Positions 1 through 19,718 of a DNA stretch of 64,000 bases are shown one piece after another. The translations under genes and the position numbers were made by a program. A model generated the notes under the pieces. It was given only the letters and a program-made list of their open reading frames with translations. It was not told where the DNA came from and did no database searches. Location: NCBI GenBank assembly GCA_905181885.1, contig CAJIZI010000002.1, forward strand, positions 1 to 64,000. Reading direction: 5' to 3'. This DNA is from an uncultured Gammaproteobacteria bacterium. Lineage in GTDB: Bacteria; Pseudomonadota; Gammaproteobacteria; Nitrosococcales; Methylophagaceae. Every line of letters begins with the position of its first letter. Within the stretch, counting starts at the first letter, position 1.

Positions 1-535
1 CTTCTTTATCGGCTTCGGCATTAAATGCTCTCTCTTCCTCATCAGCAGCGGGCTTTGCATCAAGCTCATTTAAAAATGCAACTGTATCTGGATCGTCAAT
101 TAAATCACCTGCAACTTGCTTTTTATTGCTCAAAAAGCCACGTCTTGCTACAAAATGAAGTAATATTCGCCCAAATTCATGTGGATCTAACTGATGATCT
201 AACGCTTTTGTCCTTAGTTGATAAGGATCTCCTAGTTTATTGAGGATTATTTCTGGTTGCGTATTGCCTTGTAACTCACGCGGCAATAAGTTAAGTAATA
301 CAAGATAGTTCAACATTCTTTCTTTGCGCCGAGCTCGTCTTTGCACAACACGCCTACCAAGTCTCGAGTCGCGACGTTTTACATTTTTTGGAGTAGGTAC
401 TCCTGCAGCTACTGCTTTGGTGAAAATACGGCTACCTATAGCAATGATCCCATCAATATTGCCGGCAGATTCATTAAGTAGTGCCCAACCTATTGAATTG
501 CTTCCTAGATCTAACCCTAAAATTTTCTTGCTCAT
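1..535 (-). CDS. cas9: Cas9 endonuclease, N-terminal part (CRISPR type II, II-C-like; C-terminal part lies outside the window)
   Basis: Manual minus-strand translation from ATG at 533-535 gives 178 uninterrupted codons: MSKKILGLDLGSNSIGWALLNESAGNIDGIIAIGSRIFTKAVAAGVPTPKNVKRRDSRLGRRVVQRRARRKERMLNYLVLLNLLPRELQGNTQPEIILNKLGDPYQLRTKALDHQLDPHEFGRILLHFVARRGFLSNKKQVAGDLIDDPDTVAFLNELDAKPAADEEERAFNAEADKE. RuvC-I (GLDLGSNSIGWAL), Arg-rich bridge helix and LRxKAL...RRGFxSNKK motif present. RBS AGGGAG at 541-546. Confidence 0.95.
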   Translation of the reverse strand, partial: MSKKILGLDLGSNSIGWALLNESAGNIDGIIAIGSRIFTKAVAAGVPTPKNVKRRDSRLGRRVVQRRARRKERMLNYLVLLNLLPRELQGNTQPEIILNKLGDPYQLRTKALDHQLDPHEFGRILLHFVARRGFLSNKKQVAGDLIDDPDTVAFLNELDAKPAADEEERAFNAEADKE

Positions 536-563
536 AACATCTCCCTGTGTATATAATCAAGAT

Positions 564-672
564 TCTTAGTGTAACCGACTAAGGTCTATTGATTGCTTTT
601 CATACTAAGAAATTGTTTTTCGTAGGCTCCGCTTTTAAGCGAGACAGGCCCTCCGCAAGGGGGGTTTTTTAT
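564..672 (+). ncRNA. Candidate tracrRNA divergent from cas9
   Basis: Perfect TATAAT at 552-557 on +, weak TTGCTC -35 at 528-533 (18-nt spacer), internal complementarity TTCTTAGT (564-571)/ACTAAGAA (604-611), hairpin CGCTTTTAAGCG, and CCCTCC-GCAA-GGGGGG-TTTTTT terminator. No protein gene on + upstream needs that terminator. Confidence 0.6.
650..670 (+). terminator. Intrinsic terminator of the candidate tracrRNA
   Basis: ccctccgcaaggggggtttttt: 6-bp GC stem, GCAA tetraloop, U-tract. Confidence 0.7.
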
Positions 673-840
673 TGCCTTTATTTTGATAACACTCCCACAT
701 TTTAATTTCCTTAGTCAGCACCTTTTACTAAACTAAAGCATATATATGATCATAAGTCTAGGCGATAACAGTTCTTATTCTCATCTATAACTAGTGACTA
801 TTAACTCGCTAAATCCTCGCGTACTGCTGCGTAAACTCTG

Positions 841-1260
841 TCATTTAGATAGTTTCAAACGTGAACATTGATAGTCTTTCGTCTGTTTTTCTCGATAGCC
901 TTTGCCTCTCGTTTTGGCTAGATATGATGCTCGATAAATAGCTGCTTGAGCAGTTTCTTCACTATCTACAAAATAGAATGGATTTTTAATTGTTGGAACG
1001 TGGTAGCCACCTGTTGGCCTTTCCCATGCCTGTCTGACCATGTCATTTATCCTTGATGAATGACGTATCAAACCTCCATCTAGGAACAATACCCAGTGAT
1101 AATGCTGGCCTTTACCTTTACCGTGATATTCCCTTGCCCAACAAAATCCGATTTGCTTAAACCCATACTCACGTTTTAGCTTTTGAAATAATCGCTTTCT
1201 AAATAAAGTCATTTGTTTATTGTGATTAAACTCAGTAGGAAGATGAAGGTCAAACCTCAA
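841..1260 (-). CDS. Inovirus Gp2 / YagK-YfjJ-family protein, C-terminal domain (replication-associated)
   Basis: GFCWAREYHGKGKGQHYHWVLFLDGG and following C-terminal sequence resemble the YagK/YfjJ C-terminal (inovirus Gp2) family. ORF start is TTG; the frame stays open upstream to 1569 without an ATG. Confidence 0.6.
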   Translation of the reverse strand: MRFDLHLPTEFNHNKQMTLFRKRLFQKLKREYGFKQIGFCWAREYHGKGKGQHYHWVLFLDGGLIRHSSRINDMVRQAWERPTGGYHVPTIKNPFYFVDSEETAQAAIYRASYLAKTRGKGYREKQTKDYQCSRLKLSK

Positions 1261-1586
1261 TACAAAAACCCTCTTCCATTTAATCCGAGCTATTTCAAAC
1301 TGTTCAATAATTCTTTGTAATATTCCGGTAAAAAGACCGAATTTTTCCCGACCTTTTCCATTATTTATTTGATAGGTTTTGTCATGGTGCGTAATAGAGT
1401 CTTTATCAGTTACTCGCTTCCTGTTTACAGTCCGCTTTAACTTCTTAGGCCTTGGTATTGTTTCTACATTATTAGTATCGTGGGTTACATTCGCTTCGCT
1501 ACTAGATAAAAGAAATAACCATTCATTTTCGTCACTTTCATGAATAGGTAAGTCCCAGCTGTTGAAGCCTCATCTATCCTTTCGTG

Positions 1587-1611
1587 TGTCAAAACCGCCA
1601 TGTCAAAACCG
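1587..1611 (+). repeat. Two 11-nt direct repeats TGTCAAAACCG (14-nt period)
   Basis: tgtcaaaaccg at 1587-1597 and 1601-1611. Confidence 0.6.
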
Positions 1612-1683
1612 TCCTCTGTTTCAGGGGTAGCTTTTGGCATAAGAGCACAACTTGCTATTTAACTTTGGTAATCTACTCATTGC

Positions 1684-1881
1684 TTACGCCTCCCCGTTGC
1701 GAGAAGCCGCTATTCTTTCTTCGAGCCATTGGTCAACCTCAGAGGTTAACCAGCCGCTTGAACGCTCACCCAGTTTGATAGGACTAGGAAACGTCCCTTG
1801 TCTTGCCTTACGGTAAATTGAGCCACCGCTTAAACGGGTAATAAGTTTAAGTTCTTTCAATTTTAATATTTGTTGAGTCAT
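1684..1881 (-). CDS. AlpA-family (CP4-57-like) DNA-binding regulator / excisionase-like protein
   Basis: 65 aa; LITRLSGGSIYRKARQGTFPSPIKLGERSSGWLTSEVDQWLEERIAASR is the typical AlpA wHTH. RBS ggagg upstream. Confidence 0.9.
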   Translation of the reverse strand: MTQQILKLKELKLITRLSGGSIYRKARQGTFPSPIKLGERSSGWLTSEVDQWLEERIAASRNGEA

Positions 1882-2700: not shown

Positions 2701-4092
2701 TCAGCAGTTCTGCTCAGCTTCGCTGTCTAAGCTGTCCATGATGAATCTTTGTACATGCGTATCTATAGATAATTTCTTATACCACTCTTCCAAGCTCAAT
2801 TCTGGTAAAGAACTATAATTTTCGGGTTTAAACCAGCTTGTATCTAATTTACTCATTTTATTCCCTGCCTTGTTAATAGGGACAACGTTTCCGCCATTGG
2901 CTTGCCCATCTAGATAGTCAGCCCATGCTTGCATCATTTTCTTACGGTCTGGCAAGTATTGCGCGTAGTTGTATGCCCCTCTCACTCCATTCCTTTCAAC
3001 ATGTGCTAATTGGCGTTCTATCCAATCATAGTTGAAGCCCTGCTCATTAAGGTTTGTAGAGGCCATGCTTCTAAAGCCGTGTGCTGTCATTTCCTCTTGG
3101 GTATAACCCATCCGTCTTAGAGCGGCGTTTACGGTGTTTTCACTCATTGGTCTAGTGATTGTTCGACTGCTAGGGAAAACATACTTGTCACGGCCTGTGA
3201 GTGGCTTTATTTGCTCTAGTATCTCTACAGATTGTCTTGATAGCGGTACGATATGTACTACACGACTTTTCATCTTTTCTGCTGATATACGCCATTCAGC
3301 TTTGCTTAGATCGATCTCTGACCACTCTGCCTTTCTTAACTCTCCCGGCCTGACAAATACTAGAGGTGATAATTTTAAAGCTGAGGCTACAATACTTGTG
3401 CCTGTAAAGTCCTGTATGGCTCTCATCAATGCCCCTATTGCAACAGGATCGGTTATTGAAGCATGATGCTTTTCTTTTGTTGGTGGTAATGCTCCCTGCA
3501 AATCAGCACTAGGATCTCGTTCAGCGCGCCCAGTCGATATAGCATATTTAAACACTCGTCCACATATTGACTTGACTCTGTGAGCAGTTTCTAAATGGCC
3601 CTTGCTTTCAATACGTCTTAATATCGTAAGTACTTCGGGTGCTGTTATGTCATTGATATTCTTGTTGCCTAGCCAAGGAAAAACTTTTTGCTCTAATCTC
3701 AATATAGTTTTATCAGCATGGCTATCTGACCAGGTATTGCGAAATTTGATGTGCCATTCACGGGCGACTGTTTCAAAGCTGTCTTTATCCATTACAGATT
3801 GCTTATCAGCTTTTCTTAAATGTGATGGATCTATCCCATCAGATAATGACTGGCGAAAAATATTTCTTTTCATTCTCGCCTGTTTCAGACTTACTTCAGG
3901 GTAAGCACCCAGTGCTAATAATTTCTGTTTACCCTCGTAACGATACTTTAATCTCCACAACTTTCCTCCACTTGGAGCAACCTCAAGATACAAACCCTTT
4001 TCATCAGCCATTCGATACAGTTTGCTGGTGGCTGTACCATCAGGCTTTATCTTTGCTTTGGCGTTCTTTATTTTTACATCAGTTAATGGCAT
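2701..4092 (-). CDS. P4/CP4-57-type tyrosine recombinase (integrase with N-terminal arm-binding domain)
   Basis: MPLTDVKIKNAK...LYLEVAPSGGKLWRLKYRYEGKQKLLALGAYPEVSLKQAR plus catalytic RPGELRKAEWSEID, TAHGFRSMASTNLNEQGF and QLAHVERNGVRGAYN motifs. Starts next to the ssrA 3' end. Confidence 0.95.
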   Translation of the reverse strand: MPLTDVKIKNAKAKIKPDGTATSKLYRMADEKGLYLEVAPSGGKLWRLKYRYEGKQKLLALGAYPEVSLKQARMKRNIFRQSLSDGIDPSHLRKADKQSVMDKDSFETVAREWHIKFRNTWSDSHADKTILRLEQKVFPWLGNKNINDITAPEVLTILRRIESKGHLETAHRVKSICGRVFKYAISTGRAERDPSADLQGALPPTKEKHHASITDPVAIGALMRAIQDFTGTSIVASALKLSPLVFVRPGELRKAEWSEIDLSKAEWRISAEKMKSRVVHIVPLSRQSVEILEQIKPLTGRDKYVFPSSRTITRPMSENTVNAALRRMGYTQEEMTAHGFRSMASTNLNEQGFNYDWIERQLAHVERNGVRGAYNYAQYLPDRKKMMQAWADYLDGQANGGNVVPINKAGNKMSKLDTSWFKPENYSSLPELSLEEWYKKLSIDTHVQRFIMDSLDSEAEQNC

Positions 4093-4155
4093 TTGGTGGT
4101 AGATTCCTTTTTAGGTATCAATCTACCACCAAATCTACCACCATAATTGGTGGTA
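4091..4155. repeat. Inverted-repeat cluster at the int start (candidate arm-type or autoregulatory sites)
   Basis: Perfect 15-bp IR ATTTGGTGGTAGATT (4091-4105)/AATCTACCACCAAAT (4120-4134), followed by 8-bp IR TACCACCA (4136-4143)/TGGTGGTA (4148-4155). Confidence 0.7.
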
Positions 4156-4202
4156 TGTAAAGGAATGTTATATGACGCTATGAAACGACAGGCACAAAAA
4201 AA

Positions 4203-4219
4203 CCCATATATAATGGGCT
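4203..4219 (-). terminator. Probable ssrA terminator
   Basis: Minus strand AAGCCCATTATATATGGGTTTTTTTG. Confidence 0.6.
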
Positions 4220-4255
4220 TTTAAGTTCTTCTTGGTAGGTTGTGAAACCTATATA

Positions 4256-4613
4256 TGGTGGAGATGGCGGGACTCGAACCCGCGTCCGCAAATCCTCCGC
4301 TCTCAGCTCTACATGCTTATTTCATCTATTATTTTAACTAGAAACTACCCGATGAACAGGGAAAATAACTAGCGATCTTGAGAGGTTTCAGACCATCAGT
4401 ACCAAGCATACTTATGGCTTGTCTTATGAGAATTGACCATTGAAACCTAAACGCATAAGCACGGCTTTAGTCAATGGCTAGCAAGCCTAAGCTGCTAGTT
4501 TGTAGTTGTTATCGTTTGCAACTATATTTTGTTAATCTGTTTTACGAGAAGAATTAACATACTCGGCATGCACCTTAAGTTTTGTAACCCACGTCGAAAC
4601 CAGAGTCATCCCC
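4256..4613 (-). ncRNA. ssrA: tmRNA (transfer-messenger RNA)
   Basis: 5' GGGGATGACTCTGGTTTCGACGTGGGTTACAAAACTTAAGGTGCATGCCGAG, tag reading frame GCAAACGATAACAACTACAAACTAGCAGCTTAG (ANDNNYKLAA*, 4487-4519), 3' ...GGACGCGGGTTCGAGTCCCGCCATCTCCACCA. Confidence 0.95.
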
Positions 4614-4671
4614 AAAGTGTTGTACGATATAGACAGTATATGTCAGTGATTGTATCCAAGCCAGACATATG

Positions 4672-5154
4672 TTATTTATTTCTAAAAATTCGAGACTTTT
4701 CACGTGCCCAGTCTTTATCTTTTTCGGTCGCACGTTTATCGTGATGTTGCTTACCTTTAGCCAGTGCTATCTCAAGTTTAGCTCTACCCTTTTTCCAATA
4801 CATAGAAACCGGTACGATGGTATAACCTTTTCTATCAACAGCAGCTACCAAACGGTTGAGTTCGACCCTATTTAATAGTAGTTTACGACGACGAATGTCA
4901 TCAGGATGAATATGAGTTGATGCCGATAACATCGGTGAAATATGGCAGCCGTGTAACCAAGCCTCACCTTGGTGAAGTTGAACATAACTTTCATTCAACT
5001 GACCACGCCCGTCACGAAGGCTTTTGACCTCCCATCCTTCCAACACCAATCCTGCTTCAAAATTATCTTCTAAGAAAAAGTCATGACGCACACGACGATT
5101 TTTAGCAATATTACTGCTTGTACCTTTTTCTTTTTTACTTTTCTTTGTGGCCAT
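4672..5154 (-). CDS. smpB: SsrA-binding protein SmpB
   Basis: [40 protein letters not shown]; 160 aa; adjacent to ssrA. Confidence 0.97.
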
Positions 5155-5393
5155 AGTATCTATTATAAGTGCAAGTTGACTTGAACGCTCGGCTAATCAC
5201 TAATCTAAGTCAATTCTCTGTAGTTCTTGAACTCCTAGTGAATTTAGATCATAAAAACCATTTGTGGAGATAAAAAGATTTGGACTATATAAAATCAGTC
5301 ATTATGTTTATTATATAGCTACATCATCAAGAAATAGCAAAACTCATACGAGGCTGCTATTCCAACTTAAACCCTTAGGTAAAAAAACACAAT

Positions 5394-6755
5394 ATGGCTA
5401 GACCATTACAATCTATTCACGGTCAATGGTCGTCTCGCTGGGCTTTTGTCCTCGCAGCTACGGGTTCTGCCGTTGGGTTAGGGAATATTTGGAAGTTTCC
5501 TTATATCACTGGTGAAAATGGTGGTGGTGCATTTGTTCTAGTTTATCTTGCTTGTCTCGTCTTGATAGGTTTACCCGTAATGATGGCCGAAATTCTCGTG
5601 GGCCGACGAGGCCGTCAAAACCCAGTAAACTCTCTTCATAGTCTTGCAATAGAAGAGAAAACAACCCAAGACTGGCAATATTTAGGCTGGTTGGGCCTGA
5701 CGGCAGGCATTTTAATCATGTCCTATTACAGCGTCTTTGCCGGTCAAGCGCTTGCTTATGTTTTTAGAAACTTTTCTGGTGTATTCGAAGGGGTTACTGC
5801 TGACGGGGCTACTTCTATTTATAACGCCCTTGTTTCTGATCCTGAGCGCCTTTTAGCTTGGCATACAATCTTCGTGATCATCACATCTATAGTCGTTGCT
5901 CGCGGAGTTCAAGGAGGATTAGAAAAAGCTGTTAAATTTTTAATGCCAGCCCTCCTCGCCATCCTATTTTTATTAGTAGGTTACGCTGCAAATACCGGTA
6001 TCTATTTTCAACAAGGAATTGATTTTTTATTCCATGCTGACTTTTCAAAACTTTCTGGTGATTCAGTCCTAACGGCAATGGGTCATGCATTTTTCACACT
6101 CAGCTTAGGCATGGGCGCGATAATGGTCTATGGTTCTTATCTGCCAAAAAGTGCTTCTATCTTAAAAATGACCTTTGCTATTGCCTTCGCCGACACTGCC
6201 GTTGCCTTATTAGCTGGTATGGCTATCTTCCCACTTGTATTCGCTAATGGTTTAGACATTGATGCTGGCCCAGGTCTTATTTTTCACACACTACCCATAG
6301 CTTTTGGTCATATGCAGGGTGGCGCTTTCTTTGGTGGCTTATTCTTTTTACTCTTAGTCTTTGCAGCGTGGAGTTCCGCCATTTCTTTGATAGAACCTGC
6401 TGTAGCGTGGTTAGTTGAAAATAAGGAAGTTAGTCGACGTCGTGCTTCAGTAATAACGGGTTTAGTCACTTGGTCTCTTGGTTTATTAACTGTTTTCTCA
6501 TTTAATATTGCATCAGAATGGACTGTATTTGGTAACACCTTTTTTGATTTACTTGACTACCTCACTGCAAATATTATGTTGCCTCTCGGTGGTTTATTAA
6601 TAGCCATATTTGTAGGTAGAATAATGAGCCAAGATTCAAGTGAAAAAGAACTTAATATTAAACCCCAGTATCTTTATTCAACCTGGCGTTTTCTAATCCG
6701 ATATATTGCCCCCGCTGGCATTATTATTGTCTTTTTAAATATGTTGTGGAATTAA
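5394..6755 (+). CDS. Sodium-dependent (NSS/SNF family) transporter
   Basis: SSRWAFVLAATGSAVGLGNIWKFPYITGENGGGAFVLVYL. Confidence 0.93.
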   Translation: MARPLQSIHGQWSSRWAFVLAATGSAVGLGNIWKFPYITGENGGGAFVLVYLACLVLIGLPVMMAEILVGRRGRQNPVNSLHSLAIEEKTTQDWQYLGWLGLTAGILIMSYYSVFAGQALAYVFRNFSGVFEGVTADGATSIYNALVSDPERLLAWHTIFVIITSIVVARGVQGGLEKAVKFLMPALLAILFLLVGYAANTGIYFQQGIDFLFHADFSKLSGDSVLTAMGHAFFTLSLGMGAIMVYGSYLPKSASILKMTFAIAFADTAVALLAGMAIFPLVFANGLDIDAGPGLIFHTLPIAFGHMQGGAFFGGLFFLLLVFAAWSSAISLIEPAVAWLVENKEVSRRRASVITGLVTWSLGLLTVFSFNIASEWTVFGNTFFDLLDYLTANIMLPLGGLLIAIFVGRIMSQDSSEKELNIKPQYLYSTWRFLIRYIAPAGIIIVFLNMLWN

Positions 6756-7543: not shown

Positions 7544-8350
7544 TTATGCATGACCTTCTAACAAAGCCATCTCAGCATCTGTAAACCCGGCTTGCTTACG
7601 TGCTTCAGTATGAAAAGGCCCTCGTAACTGACCATCAAAGTAGTTATCTAATATATCTTTAAAGGTTTCAAGAGCATCAACTCCGCGTTGTTCACAAAGG
7701 TAATTAAACCAGTGTGTACCGATAGCAACGTGGCCTATTTCTTCTCGTAAAATGAGCTCTAAAATTTCAACGGCTCTTAAGTCTCCGGTTCCTCTTAGCT
7801 TCTCCATCATTTTCGGCGTTACATCTAAGCCACGAGCCTCCAGTACTCTGGGTACAAGAGCCATTCTCATCAGAGGGTCATGGTGAGTCTTTTGAGCCAT
7901 CTCCCACATACCATTATGAGCTGGGAAGCTTCCATAGTCATAGCCTAGTGAGACTAAGTGATCACGTAATAAAGTAAAATGTTGTGATTCTTCATAAGCG
8001 ACTCTCACCCAATCGGCATAATATTGCCGAGGAAGACCTGGAAAACGTGCCACAGCATCCAATGCTAAGTTAATAGCATTAAATTCAATGTGATTAACGG
8101 CATGAATCAAGGGTGCAACACCCGTAGCTGAACTATTTTTACGCTTTGGTAAGTCACGTGGTGCCACTAACTCTGGCTTGTCTGGCTGTCCCGGTATATC
8201 GGGTACAGATAGTTCGGCTTTCGAGATAGATAATGTCTCTTCTTGCCAACGCCGATAAAGCTTTTGTGTTTGCTTAACTTTATCCAAAGGATCTTTCATT
8301 AGTAGGCAAGATAGTGCTGCTTCCCTTAATCCATTATCATTTTCTGTCAT
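7544..8350 (-). CDS. DUF455 ferritin-like family protein
   Basis: HAVNHIEFNAINLALDAVARFPGLPRQYYADWVRVAYEESQHFTLLRDHL; EIGHVAIG. Confidence 0.85.
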   Translation of the reverse strand: MTENDNGLREAALSCLLMKDPLDKVKQTQKLYRRWQEETLSISKAELSVPDIPGQPDKPELVAPRDLPKRKNSSATGVAPLIHAVNHIEFNAINLALDAVARFPGLPRQYYADWVRVAYEESQHFTLLRDHLVSLGYDYGSFPAHNGMWEMAQKTHHDPLMRMALVPRVLEARGLDVTPKMMEKLRGTGDLRAVEILELILREEIGHVAIGTHWFNYLCEQRGVDALETFKDILDNYFDGQLRGPFHTEARKQAGFTDAEMALLEGHA

Positions 8351-8361
8351 AAATCCAACTA

Positions 8362-9345
8362 TTAATTATCCATGGTGACACGTGGATCAACCAAGGTATA
8401 GGAGAGGTCTGTCAATACCAAACCAACAATATATAGTACCGAACCTAGAAAAACCATCGCCCGAACAATAGCAAAATCCTGTGCTTGAATTGCATCAATG
8501 GTGTAACTTCCAAGGCCAGGAATACCAAAAAATGATTCTATAATTAAACTACCCATGAACAATGTCGGTAGTACCACGACAACTCCAGTTAAAATTGGGA
8601 TCATGGCATTTTTTAATACATGCTTGAACAACACTTGTAACTCTGAGAATCCTTTGGCTCGGGCTGTTCTAACATAGTCTTTAGAAGCCTCTTCTAGAAA
8701 TAAAGTTCTATACCAGCGTGAGCCTCCACCAATTCCTGAAATAACTCCGATCACTACAGGCAACAACACAAACTTAATCGCACTAAAACCATCGCTATAA
8801 CCTGATATAGGTACAAGCTGCATGAGCTTACCCACTAAAAATTGACCACCAATAATGTAGAATAAGCTGGAGATAGACATAATGACAACACATAGAATGA
8901 CACCGCCCAAGTCAATATAACTGGCTCTGAAAAACACCATCAATAGAGCGAAGGTAATATTGACCATCAGGCCAATGACCAAAGTTGGAACTGCTATAGC
9001 TAGACTAGGCCACATTCGTGTTTTGATATCTTGCCCAATATTTCGCCCATCATCAGCTTGGCCAAAATCAAACATAAACAAACTCAATGATTTTTCAAAA
9101 AATATCGTCTCAGTAGCTTTATCTGTAAAACTCTCAGCATCACTCTCCCACAAAAGTGCTTTATCGTAACCACGAGCTTCTTTCCAAGCATCTACTGAAA
9201 CTTGAGTTACGTGTTTAGTGCCGAGCTGCATCCTTGCCATATCATCAGGCGTATTCACCATGAAAAACAGCGCAAACGTTAAAGCATTTACACCCATCAG
9301 AATAGGAAAGGCATACAGAATTCTTCTTACAATATAAGCAAACAT
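8362..9345 (-). CDS. DppB/YejB-type ABC transporter permease
   Basis: MFAYIVRRILYAFPILMGVNALTFALFF; EASKDYVRTARAKGFSELQVLFKHVLKNAMIPILT. Confidence 0.9.
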   Translation of the reverse strand: MFAYIVRRILYAFPILMGVNALTFALFFMVNTPDDMARMQLGTKHVTQVSVDAWKEARGYDKALLWESDAESFTDKATETIFFEKSLSLFMFDFGQADDGRNIGQDIKTRMWPSLAIAVPTLVIGLMVNITFALLMVFFRASYIDLGGVILCVVIMSISSLFYIIGGQFLVGKLMQLVPISGYSDGFSAIKFVLLPVVIGVISGIGGGSRWYRTLFLEEASKDYVRTARAKGFSELQVLFKHVLKNAMIPILTGVVVVLPTLFMGSLIIESFFGIPGLGSYTIDAIQAQDFAIVRAMVFLGSVLYIVGLVLTDLSYTLVDPRVTMDN

Positions 9346-12276: not shown

Positions 12277-14100
12277 TTACTCAACATTAAACAAGTTAAT
12301 CGCACCTGTTTCGGCAGTAGAAACACCACGTCGGAAACTATCGAATAATTCACGGCCTGTGCCGTAATGATGTTCAGTGTTAGCCATCACACAAGCTACA
12401 CGCCCCTCTAGTTCCTTATCGTCAACGAGAACATTAAGTTCTCCAGTTTCTGCATTCAAACGGATAATATCGCCATCTCGTACTTTAGTTAGCACGCTAC
12501 CATCGGCACATTCAGGGCACATATGAATCGCAGAAGGGACTTTACCTGAGGCACCAGACATACGGCCATCAGTTACTAAAGCCACTTTAAACCCTTTATC
12601 TTGTAGAACACCCAATGGTGGCGTTAACTTATGAAGTTCTGGCATTCCGTTCGATTTGGGTCCCTGAAAGCACAATACTACAATAACGTCTTTATTCAAC
12701 TCACCACGCTTAAAAGCTTCAACAACATCATCTTGATAGTCAAAGACCATTGCAGGAGCTTCCACCACCCGATGCTTAGGATCAACAGCAGATACTTTAC
12801 TCATTCCACGACCCAAATTACCTTGCATCAAATGTAAGCCTCCACCTGCAGCGAAAGGATTTTTGACTGAGCTTATAACTTCAGGATCTAGTGTTACTAA
12901 TGGACCTTCTACCCAAACTAATTTGTCATCAACTAATTTTGGCTCTTGCGTATAAGATTTCATACCACGCTTGTCCGCTACGGCAAGAACATCTTCATGC
13001 ATAAGACCATTTTCATTCAACTCTCTGATTAAAACACTCATTCCACCCGCTGCTTGGAAATGGTTTATATCGGCATCACCATTTGGATAAACGCGTGTCA
13101 CTGAGGGTACAACTTTGGACAAGCGATCAAAATCATCCCAGTTAATGATCACACCTGCAGCACGTGCAATCGCAATTAGATGAATTGTATGATTTGTTGA
13201 GCCACCGGTAGCTAACAAACCAACCAATGCATTCATAATTGCTTTTTCGTCGATCATATGACCGATGGGTCTATAATCATCACCTTGAGCAGTAAATTTC
13301 AGTACTTGCCGTGTTGCTGCTTTAGTTAACTCATCGCGCAGCGGTGTGTACGGGTTAATGAATGATGTCCCTGGCATATGAAGACCCATCATCTCGACCA
13401 TCATCTGGTTACTATTAGCTGTACCGTAAAAAGTACATGTACCTGCACTATGATAAGACTCTGATTCTGCTTTCAACAATTCATCACGGCCGACTTTACC
13501 TTCGGCATAAAGTTGACGTATTCTTACTTTCTCTTTATTTGGTAATCCACTTGGCATTGGTCCTGCTGGCACAAAGACTGCTGGTAGATGACCAAAACTC
13601 AAGGCACCTATTAATAAGCCTGGGACAATTTTGTCACACACGCCTAAATACATAGCGGCATCGAACATGTTATGACTTAGAGCGATCGCTGTCGACATCG
13701 CAATAACATCACGACTAAATAAAGATAACTCCATGCCTGGCTGACCTTGAGTAACCCCATCGCACATGGCAGGAACACCACCGGCAAATTGGGCAACGCC
13801 ACCCGCTTTCTTGGCTGCTTCTTTAATTAACTTAGGGTAATGTTGAAATGGTTCATGCGCAGACAACATATCATTGTAAGCTGAGACAATAGCAATATTA
13901 TCTTTTTTATTACCTGTTAAATCAGCCTTTTCATCCGCGGAACAAGCGGCAAAGCCATGTGCTAAGTTACCACAAGCTAGTACACCACGATGCCTATCTT
14001 CTGTCATAGCATCATCTACACGGCTAAGATACGCCTCCCGTGTTTTTTGACTTCGCTTTATGACATCATTAGTCACAGATTTTAATACTGGATGGATCAT
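12277..14100 (-). CDS. edd: 6-phosphogluconate dehydratase
   Basis: 607 aa IlvD/Edd family; [53 protein letters not shown]. Confidence 0.95.
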
Positions 14101-14320
14101 ACTTTCACTTCTCTCTATAGATTCTTGTCAATATGCAACCGATAACAATTTTACAAATACGTTAAATTGGTAGAGCTACTATTTAGATAAACTGGACAAT
14201 TAGTATACCGCGAATAGGCCTTTTTCGCACTGTGATTCATATTCGGGTGGCGTAGCTGTTTAGAAAATAACTCTGTTTAAAACTTTGATAATCATATTGA
14301 AATAGCGACCTAAAAGTGCG

Positions 14321-18455: not shown

Positions 18456-19718
18456 TTAAGGTAACAAGATCACACTTGCAACAGTTTGAAATGAGCCAAA
18501 GATGACGACCCTATCTCCTTTTCTTGCATTGGCCATTGCCTCTCTATAGGCATTTGGAACACTATCAAAAGTATTGATCTTAACATCGTCAATAACCCCT
18601 TTTAATTTCAATGCTAAAGTATCAGCACTCATTCCACGACTGCCTGATAACCCCGCAATATACCAGTCGTCTATCGCAGGTTTAAGGATAGCGGAAACCG
18701 TTGACGCTTCCTTATCTTTTAACATGGCTAGGACCCCAATAGTACGGCCTTGAAAACCAGATCCTGTTAATAATTCAACTAAGCTTAAGGCGCCTTGCTC
18801 ATTATGTGTCACATCAAAAATGCGAAGTACGGCTCCAGGAACTTGTTGAAAACGACCAGCTAGTAATACTTCTATTAAACCTTTTTCTATCTGAGGCTGG
18901 GAAATGTTAAAGCCTTGCTCTATTAACAAACTAATGACTTGTAAAACAGCAGCAGCATTTTGTAGTTGATAACGGCCTGTTAATGCTGGGTGAGGTAACT
19001 TTCTCCAAGAAATAATTTCATTTGACCAATGCCATTGTTGCGAATCATATTGATAATTAAAATCAACTGTTGCTACAGAAATATGAGCACTTAACTCATT
19101 TGCATAGTTTATTAATGACTCGGGTGGTTTCTCAGCACAGACTAATGGCTTATTAGCTCTTATAATTCCTGCTTTTTCGAAACCAATGGTCTCACGATCG
19201 TGCCCTAACCATTGGATATGATCTAGGCTAATAGGTGTAATTAATGCAATATCGGCATCGAATAAGTTCACCGCATCTAAACGACCGCCCATGCCTACTT
19301 CTAAAATAGCGATATCAATCGCTTTGTTACAAAAAATATTAACAGCTGCTAATGTGGAAAACTCAAAGTAAGTGAGTGAAATGCCATCTCTCGCTTGATC
19401 AATTTCTTCAAAAGCTTCAGATATTAACCGATCATCGCAAGCCTCTCCATCAACTACAATACGTTCGTTATAATTAATTAAGTGCGGAGACGTATAAGCA
19501 CCAGTGCGATAACCTGCCGCACGTAAAATGGAATCGAGCATAGCAACAGATGAACCTTTACCATTGGTGCCGGCAACAGTAATAACTTTAAAGGGTAAAG
19601 TGGCTTTCCCTTTCAGCTGCTGCCAAACCTGCCTGACTCTTTCAAGGCCAGGATCAACTTCAGTGAAGTGGAGCTTTTCCTGCCAAGCCAGCCATTCTGG
19701 CAAGGTTTGAAATCGCAT
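18456..19718 (-). CDS. folC: Folylpolyglutamate synthase/dihydrofolate synthase
   Basis: VITVAGTNGKGSSVAMLDSILRAAGYRTGAYTSPHL. Confidence 0.95.
   Translation of the reverse strand: MRFQTLPEWLAWQEKLHFTEVDPGLERVRQVWQQLKGKATLPFKVITVAGTNGKGSSVAMLDSILRAAGYRTGAYTSPHLINYNERIVVDGEACDDRLISEAFEEIDQARDGISLTYFEFSTLAAVNIFCNKAIDIAILEVGMGGRLDAVNLFDADIALITPISLDHIQWLGHDRETIGFEKAGIIRANKPLVCAEKPPESLINYANELSAHISVATVDFNYQYDSQQWHWSNEIISWRKLPHPALTGRYQLQNAAAVLQVISLLIEQGFNISQPQIEKGLIEVLLAGRFQQVPGAVLRIFDVTHNEQGALSLVELLTGSGFQGRTIGVLAMLKDKEASTVSAILKPAIDDWYIAGLSGSRGMSADTLALKLKGVIDDVKINTFDSVPNAYREAMANARKGDRVVIFGSFQTVASVILLP

Follow-up and report, generated by a model that had tools for sequence, protein, structure and literature searches.

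The Escherichia coli prophage CP4-57 is integrated at ssrA, the gene for transfer-messenger RNA (tmRNA), and is not known to carry a clustered regularly interspaced short palindromic repeat (CRISPR)-Cas locus. Campylobacter provides an earlier case of an element-borne Cas9: CampyICE1, an integrative and conjugative element with a type II-C Cas9 (PMC8743540). The PICMI phage satellites show the gene order int, alpA, prim and defence cargo (PMC10803314), and a survey of P2-like phages and P4-like satellites found these to be without large defence systems such as CRISPR-Cas, tying this to capsid size (PMC9122126). The literature searched, of partial coverage, contained no description of a II-C locus on an element of the satellite type. 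Here, I analyse a 64,000-nucleotide stretch of an uncultured gammaproteobacterium of the Methylophagaceae (contig CAJIZI010000002.1, positions 1 to 64,000; hereafter the window), which begins inside a cas9 gene and continues into an integrase-bearing element at the tmRNA gene. A preliminary description had reported the Cas9 N-terminus; the tracrRNA (trans-activating CRISPR RNA) gene, the integrative element and a second tmRNA allele are added here. I estimate a probability of roughly 80% that the locus is a II-C CRISPR-Cas9 system carried as cargo by a small integrative element at the 3' end of the tmRNA gene. The backbone of this element is CP4-57/PICMI-like, and probably of the phage-satellite type.

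A Cas9 N-terminus at the contig edge

The 5' part of cas9 occupies positions 2–535 on the minus strand, in a frame of 178 codons that is open from the ATG at 535 to the window edge, as had been claimed. Its translation, MSKKILGLDLGSNSIGWAL...RRGFLSNKK..., corresponds to the first 178 residues of a Cas9, and the RuvC-I motif GLDLGSNSIGWAL, the arginine-rich bridge helix and the start of the REC region named in the preliminary description are all found in it. The NCBIfam profile TIGR01865 (cas_Csn1) matches the fragment at 123 bits (E=1.1e-35; profile positions 2–134 of 1070), above its curated cut-off of 100 bits and over a segment that includes both RuvC-I and the bridge helix, and five PADLOC Cas9 models match it as well (best E=4e-24). 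These matches are far beyond chance, and a search for non-Cas9 families that fit better found none. A Pfam scan of the 178-residue fragment gave no match; on a complete orthologue, the Pfam models match later regions of the protein only.

The same stretch of Cas9 is encoded at eleven loci of public genomes, with 68–76% identity (best tblastn segment). The metagenome-assembled genomes (MAGs) concerned are labelled Nitrosomonas, Pseudomonadales, Methylococcales, Cycloclasticus, Hydrogenovibrio, Thiotrichaceae and Methylophilaceae among others, and one bears an archaeal label. The complete orthologues, which share 67–75% identity with the window protein across this stretch, are Cas9s of ∼1,030 amino acids, and the one scanned, from the Pseudomonadales locus L006, possesses the HNH_4 (E=7e-19) and RuvC_III (E=5e-15) domains. 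At L007, L009, L013 and L068–L073, cas9 is followed by cas1 and cas2, and where the contigs continue (L009, L013, L068–L073) an array follows the cas genes; no csn2 or cas4 was seen at the relatives' loci. This gene content is that of subtype II-C, so that the II-C-like assignment initially proposed for the window is well supported, and the window locus is very likely a II-C system with a tracrRNA. Past the contig edge, the gene would continue to a full Cas9 of similar size, followed by cas1, cas2 and an array.

The visible part is the N-terminus only, which leaves some room for a RuvC-family protein other than Cas9, for example IscB. The TIGR01865 and PADLOC matches speak against such a protein, as does the tracrRNA beside the gene, and it is refuted by orthology to complete Cas9s that stand with cas1 and cas2. 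IscB, which had been argued against from the outset, is therefore a negligible prospect, and the window protein is certainly a Cas9.

This Cas9 was found in 1 of 63 genomes of the order, that of the window, and in 7 of 369 sampled genomes of the class, a patchy occurrence that fits horizontal spread. In a phylogenetic tree, the window protein forms the longest end branch (0.26) within its own well-supported clade of 13 members. No relative was found in the IMG/VR viral contigs, and a plasmid search returned one distant Novosphingobium Cas9 (44%). In three relatives the 5' part of cas9 is interrupted: by an apparent IS21-like pair in L008 (1280–3575), by unrelated sequence in the archaea-labelled bin of L014 (from ∼1067), and by a frameshift in L005 (10549). 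The L015 contig and the window both end within cas9.

A tracrRNA gene divergent from cas9

Directly upstream of cas9, and divergent from it, the plus strand carries a tracrRNA gene at positions 568 to ∼673, consisting of an anti-repeat (568–589, AGTGTAACCGACTAAGGTCTAT) followed by stem-loops. The anti-repeat is identical over 22/22 positions, on the same strand, to the first 22 nucleotides of the 36-nucleotide CRISPR repeat of both L006 and L070, and the complementarity of a tracrRNA to its repeat is thus found here as measured against the repeats of relatives. This sequence is unique in the genome, and a search for CRISPR repeats elsewhere in the genome found none, the sole match being the anti-repeat itself.

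The tracrRNA segment is kept upstream of cas9 in 11/11 relatives of the first search. In L013, the repeat and the anti-repeat share the same changes, which is the behaviour expected of a tracrRNA. In the predicted duplex between the L006 repeat and the window tracrRNA (−68.7 kcal/mol), the upper stem is fully paired, and so is much of the lower one. Compared with the others, the window tracrRNA has a C-to-T change and lacks one or two bases after the anti-repeat that the other aligned sequences share. At the two more distant loci, L068 and L069, the DNA immediately upstream of cas9 gave no such segment, and the tracrRNA may be located elsewhere.

A putative −10 element resembling TATAAT was read by eye at 552–557 (plus strand), and a similar motif occurs at a similar position in most relatives; a scan for the −35/−10 consensus at the tracrRNA found nothing. 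At the other end of the gene, a terminator scan gave three overlapping matches where 0.2 are expected, at 646–673 (plus strand), corresponding to an intrinsic terminator, AGGCCCTCCGCAAGGGGGGTTTTTT. RNase III would cut the duplex of tracrRNA and pre-crRNA, and the guided Cas9 would then cut the DNA of phages or rival elements.

An integrative element at the tmRNA gene

The element reads, from its site inwards, tmRNA, tyrosine integrase, AlpA, HUH-type Rep, and tracrRNA with cas9. The tmRNA gene (ssrA; 4256–4613, minus strand; RF00023, E=2.4e-84) is the integration site, and is flanked on the host side by smpB (4672–5154, minus strand), assigned by sequence and position and with an identical translation on another contig of the assembly, C3. 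Directly downstream of the tmRNA are the tyrosine integrase (2701–4092, minus strand), with the CP4-57/P4-type domain order Arm-DNA-bind_3, Phage_int_M and Phage_integrase, and an AlpA-type excisionase or regulator (1684–1881, minus strand; PF05930, E=6e-16, and PHROG excisionase families). These are followed by the Rep (YagK_YfjJ_C / REP_ORF2-G2P; 841–1640, minus strand, main frame 841–1560), in which an HUH-like motif, HYH, can be recognised by eye (QHYHWVLFLDG). Cas9 starts ∼3.7 kb into the element, beyond these three genes and on the element side of the tmRNA. The visible 4.2 kb thus hold an integrase, AlpA and a replication gene, and no gene for a phage structural protein.

By analogy with the 28-bp attL/attR pair of L006 (see below), the 3' end of the tmRNA (4251–4278) is the probable attL. 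The repeat taken as the att mark is ATGGTGGAGATGGCGGGACTCGAA, of which a copy would be expected beyond the cas locus; the genome has just one further exact copy, in the second allele on C3, whose tmRNA is intact. The integrase, together with AlpA, would excise the element and move it at tmRNA genes.

The Rep is frameshifted near ∼1555, its N-terminal part being in a different frame when compared with six congeneric homologues, and this may be either real or a sequencing error. Together with the long end branch of the Cas9 and the conserved bases missing from the tracrRNA, it would suit a decaying remnant, in which the element is no longer active and its Cas9 is truncated or mutated. However, none of the 178 visible cas9 codons is a stop and the motifs are intact, as are the integrase, AlpA, anti-repeat and terminator, making such a remnant rather unlikely.

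Cargo of an element, or a chromosomal neighbour

Two of the relatives show a comparable arrangement. In L006, exact 28-bp repeats at 19606 (the tmRNA 3' end) and 7465 enclose ∼12.2 kb, which contain an integrase, AlpA, small open reading frames, a terminase small subunit (TerS; PF03592, E=1.5e-11; PHROG 51, E=5e-20), an array of 11 repeats, cas2, cas1, cas9, the tracrRNA and the defence candidate PDC-S21. The latter (7699–8694, E=2e-121) is a DUF4917/SIR2-like protein on the same element as the Cas9. Within 13086–14315, cas1 and cas2 are each split by a frameshift, with cas9 intact, which points either to a decaying adaptation module or to errors in sequencing. In L015, the order is tRNA-Ser, integrase, AlpA and cas9.

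These loci bear on the alternative that the window holds an ordinary chromosomal II-C locus beside a separate tmRNA integrase element, with Cas9 outside the mobile unit. The attR is not visible, and no related integrase can be seen around most orthologues, as such a locus would predict. Against this, cas9 lies well within the element, farther from the tmRNA than int, AlpA and Rep; in the L006 counterpart, at the same site, exact att repeats flank the entire cas locus; L015 repeats the int-AlpA-cas9 arrangement; and this Cas9 is missing from all other genomes of the order (63 examined). A chromosomal neighbour is therefore distinctly improbable, and a Cas9 carried as cargo accounts better for these observations.

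A number of points nevertheless weigh against carriage as cargo. The GC content of the element is not set apart (0.394 vs 0.403), and the attR, the remaining cas9, cas1, cas2 and the array are outside this assembly. Frameshifts, from decay or sequencing error, affect the Rep in the window as well as cas1 and cas2 in L006. No targets were found for ten L006 spacers in phage records, nor for three of them in viral contigs. Lastly, most orthologous loci (L068–L073, L009, L013) show no related integrase in the flank seen; element carriage is therefore a minority state, and this Cas9 occurs outside such elements too. The tree gives no support for a single clade of the element-borne Cas9s (window, L006 and L015). 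Matches of 14–17 nucleotides between L006 spacers and satellite loci were judged to be at chance level.

Related integrases occur in 11/29 genomes of the genus, the window's genome counted. Among the closest of the other integrases (67–73%), those of genomes G001 and G025 (69–73%) adjoin the tmRNA, and are followed by AlpA and other cargo, with no cas9 in the stretch seen; the tmRNA element of G025 includes a TerS. In G008, int, AlpA and Rep stand in line, and the contig begins shortly ahead of int. Since these arrangements recur in congeners, the backbone is a local mobile family, of which cas9 looks like a variable cargo.

The Cas9 itself is ordinary, and the interesting part is its carriage on satellite-like elements. 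The 12.2-kb L006 element, along with the int-AlpA-cas9 arrangements of the window and L015, suggests that the CRISPR system travels between bacteria on such elements, and thereby a route for Cas9 jumps between distant hosts. If true, this route would fit the patchy distribution seen in the order. A broader proposal, which I regard as possible but doubtful, is that a small phage-satellite family (integrase, AlpA, Rep/TerS, ∼12 kb) packages complete II-C immunity and spreads it across gammaproteobacterial orders, for use against helper or competing phages and rival satellites.

The contig end and a second tmRNA allele

Window base 1 is the first base of contig C2 (94,726 bp), and the Cas9 is therefore cut by the end of the assembly. 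The host genome consists of three contigs (1.50 Mb, 99.7% complete), in which the remaining cas9 is absent from searches with the fragment, a full orthologue and TIGR01865. Recovery of the gap by joining contig ends was attempted, but no ends overlap, and the start of C3 proved to be not the far end of the element but a second tmRNA allele.

This second allele lies on C3 (L003), of which positions 1–2163 are 98.2% identical to window positions 4124–6286 over 2,165 bp. It comprises a second region of SNF-type transporter, smpB and tmRNA, with six mismatches in the ∼2 kb upstream of the tmRNA 3' end. Past the tmRNA, the C3 DNA differs from the window, and represents an allele without the Cas9 element. 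The duplicated smpB-tmRNA region may be strain variation or an assembly bubble; likeliest is strain variation, with some cells carrying the Cas9 element at the tmRNA and others not, and a mixture of such alleles would account for the end of C2 within the element. The contig probably breaks at base 1 because the element is present in only part of the sampled population.

The second allele does indicate that the assembly mixes variants, and the first 4.2 kb of the contig could in principle come from another organism. However, strain variation explains the allele, the join falls at a natural att site leading into an integrase, the closest integrase relatives found (69–73%) include ones at the tmRNA in the same genus, and the GC content is continuous. 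I consider an assembly chimera very unlikely.

Other features of these contigs were noted. On C3 (2031–9060), repeats of the TGGTGGTA type, like those beside the window integrase, follow the second tmRNA and occur again near 8957, where a degenerate sequence resembling the tmRNA end comes after them; between the two are pieces of a multicopper oxidase, and no integrase. These may be the decayed remains of an older element at this site. Near the right end of C2, a tandem repeat (L017, 18895–19618) has a period of 102 bp and copies ∼98% identical, and similar repeats are present on C3.

Comparison with known systems

As a type II-C system, the locus is conventional. The best solved-structure matches are Cas9 chains of ∼1,080–1,095 amino acids (9ar4, 8jtj, 6jdq and others), and the Cas9 motifs, the size of the relatives, the cas9-cas1-cas2-array order, the separate tracrRNA and the 36-nucleotide repeat starting GTTGTGATTTGC are all shared with II-C. 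It differs from the comparison systems in that the tracrRNA is divergent just upstream of cas9, and in that the window holds only the 5' part of this gene. The compact Cas9, its tracrRNA and its repeat could serve as a new, if conventional, II-C set.

The element shares with CP4-57 the tmRNA site, the integrase, AlpA, whose Pfam name cites that prophage, and a YagK/YfjJ-type gene. With CampyICE1 it has in common a II-C Cas9, an integrase and a site at an RNA gene, which is tRNA-Met in CampyICE1 and tmRNA in the window. CampyICE1 is reported to be conjugative, around 70 kb long and without cas1 and cas2, and to have three arrays (PMC8743540), whereas the visible part of the window element shows no conjugation genes, and its 12.2-kb counterpart in L006 has cas1 and cas2, though frameshifted. 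With the PICMI satellites it shares the order int, alpA, replication gene, defence cargo; these possess a primase, a fis site and a listed cargo of restriction-modification systems, retrons, DRT and Paris (PMC10803314), in contrast to the HUH Rep, tmRNA site and CRISPR-Cas9 found here. Finally, P4-like and P2-like elements are likewise small, integrase-bearing and provided with defence cargo, with a capsid limit near 12 kb for P4-like satellites (PMC9122126). In contrast to what has been surveyed for that group, the L006 element holds a II-C locus within its 12.2 kb.
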